This document shows, piece by piece, positions 1,733-3,098 of a stretch of 55,185 nucleotides of DNA; within the stretch, counting starts at the first letter, position 1; each line of letters starts with the position of its first letter. This DNA comes from an uncultured Spartobacteria bacterium (GTDB lineage Bacteria > Verrucomicrobiota > Verrucomicrobiia > Chthoniobacterales > Chthoniobacteraceae): the NCBI GenBank assembly GCA_903919125.1, contig CAIXGS010000079.1, positions 1-55,185 of the forward strand, read 5' to 3'. The notes beneath the pieces are model-generated. The model saw only the letters and a list, made by a program, of their open reading frames with translations. It searched no databases and had not been told where the DNA came from. Made by a program: the position numbers and the translations under genes.

Positions 1733-1782
1733 AGTCTTTTAAAAAGACTGATTTTAAACGATAGCGGTCTTTATGAAAGACC
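1733..1782 (+). promoter_or_regulatory. Paired 7-3-7 palindromes, the second centred on the start codon
   Basis: AGTCTTT-TAA-AAAGACT (1733-1749) and GGTCTTT-ATG-AAAGACC (1766-1782) are both perfect 7-base inverted repeats with a 3-base centre, and they share the core GTCTTT..AAAGAC. Their centres are 33 bases apart, about three helical turns. The ATG in the middle of the second is the start codon of the downstream ATPase gene. This looks like a two-site operator. As RNA, the second would place the AUG in a hairpin loop. The role is inferred. Confidence 0.55.
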
Positions 1783-3098
1783 ACTTACGCGAGGCAATCC
1801 GTCAGAAACTTGGGGATGCCTTAGAGCTCCCTTTTCCTAAATTGACCCCAAGGGAGGCTTCCACAGCCCCTCTAGAGGGAAAGTCTCGGGCGATTATCGG
1901 GATGCGTAGAGCTGGGAAAACAACTTTTCTTTATCAGTGCCTCGCGGCACGCCTTGCCGAGGGCGTCCCTCGCAACCAGCTGATGTATTTTAACTTTGAA
2001 GACGAACGTCTGGGGGAGATGGAGGCTGTGGATCTCGGGATGATCTTGGACGAGTATTACCGCTCTCATCCAGAATCTCGAAGAACAGAACGGGTAACTT
2101 GGTGTTTTGATGAAATTCAGGTGATCCCCGGCTGGGAAAAATTTATCCGGCGTGTGATGGACACTGAGAATGTGGAGATACTGCTCAGCGGCTCCTCTGC
2201 GAAGATGCTCAGCCGAGAAGTGGCCACAACGATGAGGGGACGATCTCTGGAAACGGTCATCACCCCATTTAGCTTTCATGAATTTGCGAGGGCACGCGGC
2301 CTGGCTCCGGTGGAGAGTTCGCTCATCAGTGGGCGCGAGCGGTCATCGTGGCTCGCCTGTTTTGATCAATATCTTGAAATTGGGGGCTTTCCTGAGGCAG
2401 GCAACGAGTCCCTCAGGAATCAACGGGTAACTTTGCTCCAAGGCTATGTAGATACAGTGCTGTTTCGAGACGTGGCAGAGAGGCACGGCATTGCCAATCT
2501 AGTGGCGTTACGAGCTTTTGTAAGACAACTACTCAGGCAACCGGCTAGTCCCCTGAGCGTGAGCAAGGTTTACGCAGATTTTCGTTCACGCGGGATCAGC
2601 ATAACAAAGGAGACCCTGTTGGCGATGCTTGCCCATCTGGAGGATGCGTTTCTAGTGTTCACACTACCCGTTGCAAGCCGCTCGGAACGCAGACAACAAG
2701 TGAATCCCCGCAAACTGTACCTTGCTGACCACTCGCTAGCCGCTGCCTACAACCCACTCAAAAACAGTGACCGAGGACATTATCTGGAAAACATCGTCGC
2801 CTGTGAACTACTGCGTCAGAACTGGAGCTTGGCCTATGTCAAAACGGTGCAGGGGCATGAGGTTGACTTCCTCGCCACCCAATCGGACGGAGGCACCCAA
2901 CTCATCCAAGTAGCCGCTGAGATTGAAAATGAATCAACTTTTCAAAGGGAGGTTCGGTCTTTGGTGGGGGCTTCAAAAGAGTTCCCAGAAGCACGGAAAA
3001 TTCTACTGACCGAAGACACCCCACCGCGTGGCTTCAGTTTACCAGAGGGTATCGAAGTGATTCCAATATGGCACTGGCTGCTCCGCCCCACCCAGTGA
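1773..3098 (+). CDS. AAA_14/DUF4143 family ATPase
   Basis: This is a 441-residue P-loop ATPase of the widespread AAA_14 plus DUF4143 type. The Walker A motif is GMRRAGKTT at residues 43-51 and a Walker B-like WCFDEIQ lies at 110-116 (Asp113, Glu114). The C-terminal DUF4143 region contains HEVDF near residues 362-366 followed by a beta-strand, reminiscent of PD-(D/E)xK nuclease cores, but catalysis is not proven. Length and domain order are normal for the family. The physiological role of these proteins is poorly known; they are often patchily distributed. The gene stands alone between repeat-rich stretches, and its start codon lies in the middle of a palindrome, which suggests autoregulation. 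Confidence 0.85.
   Translation: MKDHLREAIRQKLGDALELPFPKLTPREASTAPLEGKSRAIIGMRRAGKTTFLYQCLAARLAEGVPRNQLMYFNFEDERLGEMEAVDLGMILDEYYRSHPESRRTERVTWCFDEIQVIPGWEKFIRRVMDTENVEILLSGSSAKMLSREVATTMRGRSLETVITPFSFHEFARARGLAPVESSLISGRERSSWLACFDQYLEIGGFPEAGNESLRNQRVTLLQGYVDTVLFRDVAERHGIANLVALRAFVRQLLRQPASPLSVSKVYADFRSRGISITKETLLAMLAHLEDAFLVFTLPVASRSERRQQVNPRKLYLADHSLAAAYNPLKNSDRGHYLENIVACELLRQNWSLAYVKTVQGHEVDFLATQSDGGTQLIQVAAEIENESTFQREVRSLVGASKEFPEARKILLTEDTPPRGFSLPEGIEVIPIWHWLLRPTQ

Follow-up and report, generated by a model that had tools for sequence, protein, structure and literature searches.

What do two palindromes do when one stands just ahead of a gene and the other is wrapped around its start codon, and which protein reads them? 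This question is raised by a contig of an uncultured Spartobacteria bacterium (CAIXGS010000079.1, positions 1 to 55,185, the whole of which is called the window hereafter), where such a pair accompanies a gene encoding an AAA_14/DUF4143 ATPase. We propose, on the strength of sequence comparison and with a probability of about 0.8, that the two palindromes are operators through which this ATPase would repress its own gene. Autorepression through palindromes is an already known kind of control. The features concerned are the following.

1733 to 1749, no strand: candidate operator site 1, AGTCTTT-TAA-AAAGACT, an exact palindrome over the putative -35 hexamer; its counterpart lies 33 bp from site 2 in relatives
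1766 to 1782, no strand: candidate operator site 2, GGTCTTT-ATG-AAAGACC, an exact palindrome centred on the start codon and predicted transcription start; found at the same place in 14 ATG-centred family members
1773 to 1775, plus strand: start codon ATG of the ATPase, with the predicted transcription start within about 2 nt, the mRNA being probably leaderless
1773 to 3098, plus strand: AAA_14/DUF4143 ATPase, 441 amino acids, of the PADLOC candidate defence family PDC-S01

The palindrome pair in the window and upstream of relatives

Both sites are exact 7-3-7 inverted repeats, centred at 1741 and 1774 and thus 33 bp apart, as the initial annotation had described them, including the position of the ATPase start codon as the centre of the second; an 8-1-8 reading is also possible for site 1. 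In 55 kb, a single palindrome of this form is nothing remarkable, whereas the pair is. It had been considered unlikely to arise by chance, and a pattern search bore this out: GTCTTTN3AAAGAC was found at these two sites only in the whole 4,340,187-bp genome, where about 0.26 would be expected for its 12 fixed bases and where the reversed control pattern occurred once. When one mismatch was allowed, 17 matches were obtained in the genome versus 22 for the control, that is, no surplus elsewhere.

Upstream regions of homologous genes, for which a search had been suggested, were then compared. They comprised 30 loci from GTDB genomes, 69 from genomes of the window's phylum beyond the window's own, and 23 distinct loci from two further groups, many of them from metagenome assemblies whose labels may err. 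A pair score comparing all four half-sites was computed for 31 spacings, with detection at a score of at least 30, and equal-length stretches inside the same genes served as controls (n=610). Pairs were detected in 57 of the 122 upstream regions versus 6 of the 610 controls. Because the composition of these controls differs from that of intergenic DNA, the argument for conservation is carried by the fixed spacing and not by the score alone: among the 57 detected pairs, spacing was exactly 33 bp in 47 and 32 bp in 4, and among the 23 loci added once the pattern was known, 11 had exactly 33 as the best of the 31 spacings. Nearly every close relative carried two palindromes at the same spacing, and detection fell from 100% to 87%, 51% and 45% with decreasing relatedness to the window protein (controls, 2-5%). 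With 7-base arms, a gap of 5 performed best; other gap lengths recovered the same sites in other registers, at 33 bp for odd gaps and mostly at 32 for even ones.

The conserved feature of the family is indeed the geometry of the pair and not the letters GTCTTT. The proposed link to AAA_14/DUF4143 genes therefore stands as regards the paired arrangement, which recurs upstream of relatives, but the exact motif is confined to the window's clade and the letters differ between clades. Half-sites were of the type (A/G)GTCTT in the window's clade, CTCCTT in another, CGCCTT in L023 and GTCGC in L009, with TGGTAA (spacing 32), TGGCAAA, TTTCC and others elsewhere. Within each clade type the letters of sites 1 and 2 are identical, and both change together. 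The CTCCTT type corresponds to one protein clade spread over at least six phyla (Myxococcota, Pseudomonadota, Acidobacteriota, Planctomycetota, Spirochaetota and Thermodesulfobacteriota). Among 15 genomes of relatives with the CTCCTT or CGCCTT type, copies of the exact CTCCTT palindrome at the gene numbered 2, 1 or 0, with just two strays elsewhere, and two complete chromosomes of such relatives contained exactly the two operator sites. No flanking gene family was found in more than 3 of 83 loci.

A predicted promoter beneath the sites

Sequences were aligned on site 1 and, in two groups separately, each offset was scored for TTGACA and TATAAT. The peaks were identical in both groups, with the -35 element at offset 5 and the -10 element at offset 28 (spacer, 17 bp); in L008 the match to TATAAT was perfect, as was that to TTGACA, in the middle of site 1, in L034 and L020. 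This points to a sigma-70-like promoter lying under the operators, with its -35 element in site 1 and the start of transcription in site 2, which in the window is placed from the family average.

1737 to 1742, plus strand: putative -35 hexamer, TTTTAA (3/6), at the middle of site 1, placed from relatives
1760 to 1765, plus strand: putative -10 hexamer, GATAGC (3/6), at the best family offset, 17 bp from the -35 hexamer and immediately ahead of site 2

Since the -10 hexamer lies just before site 2, transcription would be expected to start about 7 nt past it, in the centre of that site. The start codon falls exactly at this predicted transcription start in 14 family members (ATG, or GTG in L006) that have no Shine-Dalgarno sequence in front of it, so that the mRNA is probably leaderless in the window's clade. 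These 14 are mostly Verrucomicrobiota, one of them (L009) being labelled Planctomycetota. In the window, ATG 1773 is the first possible start, as an in-frame TAA occupies 1755-1757 and is followed by no earlier ATG, GTG or TTG, and the same residue is the start in close relatives. A start codon inside an operator, with a leaderless arrangement, is unusual. In 29 other members the start codon is further downstream, mostly 5-13 nt after site 2.

Two observations may be added on these coding starts. In the CTCCTT type (L012-L034), the right half of site 2, AAGGAG, lies just before the start codon and would double as a Shine-Dalgarno sequence. Codons 2-4 of the ATPase (window 1773-1784 and relatives) are dictated by the right half-site, giving M-x-D in the GTC type and M-x-G-E/D in the CTCC type.

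The ATPase as predicted reader of its own operators

The protein encoded downstream combines an ATPase with a potential DNA-binding domain.

1890 to 2285, plus strand: AAA_14 ATPase domain, residues 40-171, with Walker A GMRRAGKTT and Walker B WCFDEIQ
2499 to 2723, plus strand: predicted winged helix-turn-helix, residues 243-317, in an AlphaFold2 model (mean pLDDT 85), matching archaeal AAA+ plus winged-helix proteins
2607 to 2645, plus strand: predicted recognition helix, residues 279-291 (KETLLAMLAHLED), in which E280 (2610-2612) and L283 (2619-2621) covary with the operator
2781 to 2918, plus strand: degenerate PD-(D/E)xK part of DUF4143, with E339, D365, then Q379-V-A381 where (D/E)-x-K is expected

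Domain scores exceeded the curated cut-offs for both AAA_14 (109.9 bits; cut-off, 27) and DUF4143 (75.8 bits; cut-off, 28.1), both Walker motifs are intact, and the PADLOC model of PDC-S01 (PDLC04787) matched residues 40-438 with an E-value of 8.6e-101. The AlphaFold2 model (pLDDT 85, pTM 0.85) contains helices at residues 243-255, 263-272 and 279-291 and strands at 295-298 and 313-317, the third helix of the winged helix beginning with K279-E280-T-L-L283. Foldseek and VIA-align grouped residues 19-328 with the archaeal AAA+ winged-helix ATPases 2qen and 2fna and with Orc1/Cdc6. A sequence-profile match to a sigma-54 domain in the PDB (residues 248-289, E 0.005) was weak and was not relied on; an NCBIfam scan gave only a meaningless weak match, a PHROGs search gave none, and no close relative was found in the viral contigs searched.

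Which protein reads the sites was addressed by covariation. Distances between operators correlate with those between proteins (Mantel r 0.74, p 0.0005), and operator type tracks the clade of the ATPase and not the phylum of the host. When whole-protein distance was regressed out over 359 variable protein columns, the best predictors of the operator were L283 and E280, with a partial r of 0.61 each, the next column reaching 0.47 and the maximum of 300 free permutations 0.49. These two residues lie close together on the predicted recognition helix, within the winged helix of the ATPase itself, and they remained among the three best columns when the window clade was left out, when TCTCC operators were left out, or after thinning to 29 sequences. 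All 32 proteins with H283 had C at position 4 of the half-site, versus 4 of the 17 proteins without H283, while E280 occurred with G(T/A)CTT in separate lineages, namely the window clade, L042 and L047 inside the D280/H283 clade, and the remote L062. Because the operator tracks the protein, residues of the recognition helix covary with it and no other gene accompanies the ATPase, this covariation is most simply explained by the ATPase reading its own operators.

Mechanistically, the ATPase would bind both palindromes through its winged helix, most likely as one dimer per palindrome. Two dimers 33 bp apart would be separated by 3.14 helical turns (33/10.5) and thus sit on nearly the same face of the DNA, where they may be bridged, or cooperate, through their AAA+ domains, probably in a nucleotide-dependent manner. 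The earlier suggestion of a two-site operator on about the same face is strongly supported by the near-invariant 33 bp across many phyla and by the covariation with the recognition helix. With site 1 over the -35 element and site 2 over the transcription start, occupancy would exclude RNA polymerase until some trigger lifted the repression. In the window's clade, site 2 would hold the start codon of the leaderless mRNA; in relatives with a leader, its right half (AAGGAG) would also be the ribosome-binding site.

Several points weigh against autorepression by the ATPase. About half of the more distant homologs have no detectable pair, and the second site is imperfect in L007, L008, L010 and L011. 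A consensus promoter scan of the window called none and its own hexamers are weak (3/6 each), which is why the promoter there has to be taken from the family. Regarding specificity, column 395 also ranks high in subsets, the helix types KDDLY, KNALY, REAIQ and REYIA break the simple rule for position 4, and the correlation is not fully independent, the sequences being related by descent.

Among other explanations, the ATPase may bind the pair as an activator, or within a complex involved in DNA structure or segregation, and not as a repressor. AAA+ plus winged-helix proteins indeed include the origin binders Orc1/Cdc6, and Orc1-2, a regulator from archaea, is active at the promoter of its own gene. 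However, the sites lie at about -32 and +2 from the predicted start, where a bound protein should block the polymerase, whereas activators usually sit further upstream, and we consider this role unlikely. Somewhat more doubtful still is a separate host regulator that would bind both sites and control the ATPase gene. Many repressors commonly use operators with two sites across a promoter, and the identity of the binder is here something that we infer. Yet the genomes show neither further copies of the motif nor a regulon, the operator type changes with the clade of the ATPase whatever the phylum, and the best predicting residues sit in the recognition helix of the ATPase itself. A genome-wide regulon was ruled out by the motif counts, which gave no surplus beyond the ATPase locus, and an adjacent regulator gene by the flanking genes, none of which is conserved.

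Control of translation by RNA hairpins, the second of which would sequester the start codon, had been put forward as the alternative to an operator, and it now appears very unlikely. If transcribed in full, the region does fold better than shuffled sequences (z -3.7 and -4.2). The independently located promoter hexamers, however, place the predicted 5' end of the RNA in the middle of site 2, and an RNA starting at 1773 shows no unusual folding (z 0.28). Within site 2, the inner pairs of the stem are kept in 8-9 of 14 members of the ATG-centred clade, versus 13 of 14 for the outer core, and hairpins would not need the two palindromes to share letters and change together. These three points led us to reject a start-codon hairpin; an Rfam search of the region for a known RNA family gave no match. 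Chance or the remnant of a mobile repeat can be dismissed with near certainty, for although the first 4 kb of the window are rich in another repeat, GGACAGACACTTT, this differs in sequence from the operators, which form a single-locus pair conserved in position in dozens of relatives.

The surroundings of the pair can be described briefly. At the start of the window is a gene for an alpha/beta hydrolase (about 691-1611), and the palindromes lie between it and the ATPase gene. The repeat GGACAGACACTTT is present in 7 copies in the window, all within the first 4.1 kb (494, 539, 662, 1597, 3176, 3248 and 4068), and in 94 copies in the genome versus 1 for the reversed control; it is a dispersed repeat that flanks genes in both orientations. 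The same genome contains a decayed fragment (G000:C69:27590-27736; L005, L066) with 69% identity to ATPase residues 353-401 and two internal stops, as well as a second ATPase of the AAA_14 type, which is remote and belongs to the E-x-K kind (G000:C21:5233-6126; L004, L065), upstream of which no paired operator was found.

Related systems and meaning for the family

PDC-S01 has been described as a candidate single-gene phage defence, in which an AAA_14 ATPase is fused to a PD-(D/E)xK-like DUF4143 domain (COG1373-like); with 29,494 bacterial and 9,986 archaeal occurrences it is reported to rank as the fourth most common defence in prokaryotes, its experimental validation being pending, as for most such candidates (PMC12988326). 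Its anti-phage role is thus that of a candidate, by genome context only. The window ATPase belongs to the same protein family by profile and has the same fusion. Unlike in that description, its branch lacks the catalytic lysine: the catalytic motif is absent from the window protein, which has Q379-V-A381 after D365, and nearly all homologs of this branch carry Q-x-C/A/S/T instead. Nuclease activity is therefore doubtful in the window's branch.

The Thermus-type branch, by contrast, carries E-V-K or E-I-K at this motif. Upstream of genes of this E-x-K branch (such as T. thermophilus TT_P0211; L139-L169), paired palindromes were found in 0 of 30 cases. Direct repeats of 13 bases (at least 12 matches) 22-23 bp apart were found there in 11 of 30 versus 0 of 180 controls, as in L147, where GGCAAATGGACG occurs three times. 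They may represent a second operator layout. In T. thermophilus, TT_P0211 RNA was increased 6.6-fold in the presence of a plasmid, only with Argonaute (PMC4406477). This is a lead, not a test.

Structurally, the ATPase shares its fold over residues 19-328 with archaeal SSO1545 (2fna) and PABY2304 (2qen), with VIA-align Z-scores of 15.4 and 15.7, but identity is 14-16% and the C-terminal nuclease-like part lies outside the match. It also resembles in build Orc1-2, an archaeal AAA+ winged-helix regulator of the transcriptional response to DNA damage that binds its own promoter (PMC9738581); Orc1-2, however, binds ANTTTC elements at many promoters, whereas the window system consists of paired palindromes at one gene. 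BrxR and CapW are WYL winged-helix repressors acting on inverted repeats at defence-gene promoters, including that of brxR itself (PMC9122601; PMC9122588), in line with the system proposed here. They are separate regulators of multi-gene systems, while in the window the candidate defence ATPase itself would carry the DNA-binding domain.

In the literature searched, no DNA target had previously been described for the AAA_14/DUF4143 family: a search on DUF4143 with palindromes or operators found none, and a full-text search on PDC-S01 found it as an abundant candidate only, with no operator, winged-helix readout or regulation. The operator pair, the predicted promoter and two named specificity residues make DNA binding and the inducing signal directly testable, and the clade-specific operators offer a natural set of orthogonal repressor-operator pairs. 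This would open a first way into a family of candidate anti-virus genes that is among the most abundant of those still uncharacterised. It is possible, though we hold this extension to be tentative and somewhat short of probable, that all members of the family are DNA-binding ATPases that regulate themselves through an operator code in two parts, namely paired palindromes 32-33 bp apart in the lysine-less branch and direct repeats 22-23 bp apart in the nuclease-type branch, with specificity set by a few recognition-helix residues evolving together with the DNA. If this is true, the gene would be a single-gene sensor-switch, whose repression would be lifted by infection or foreign DNA.
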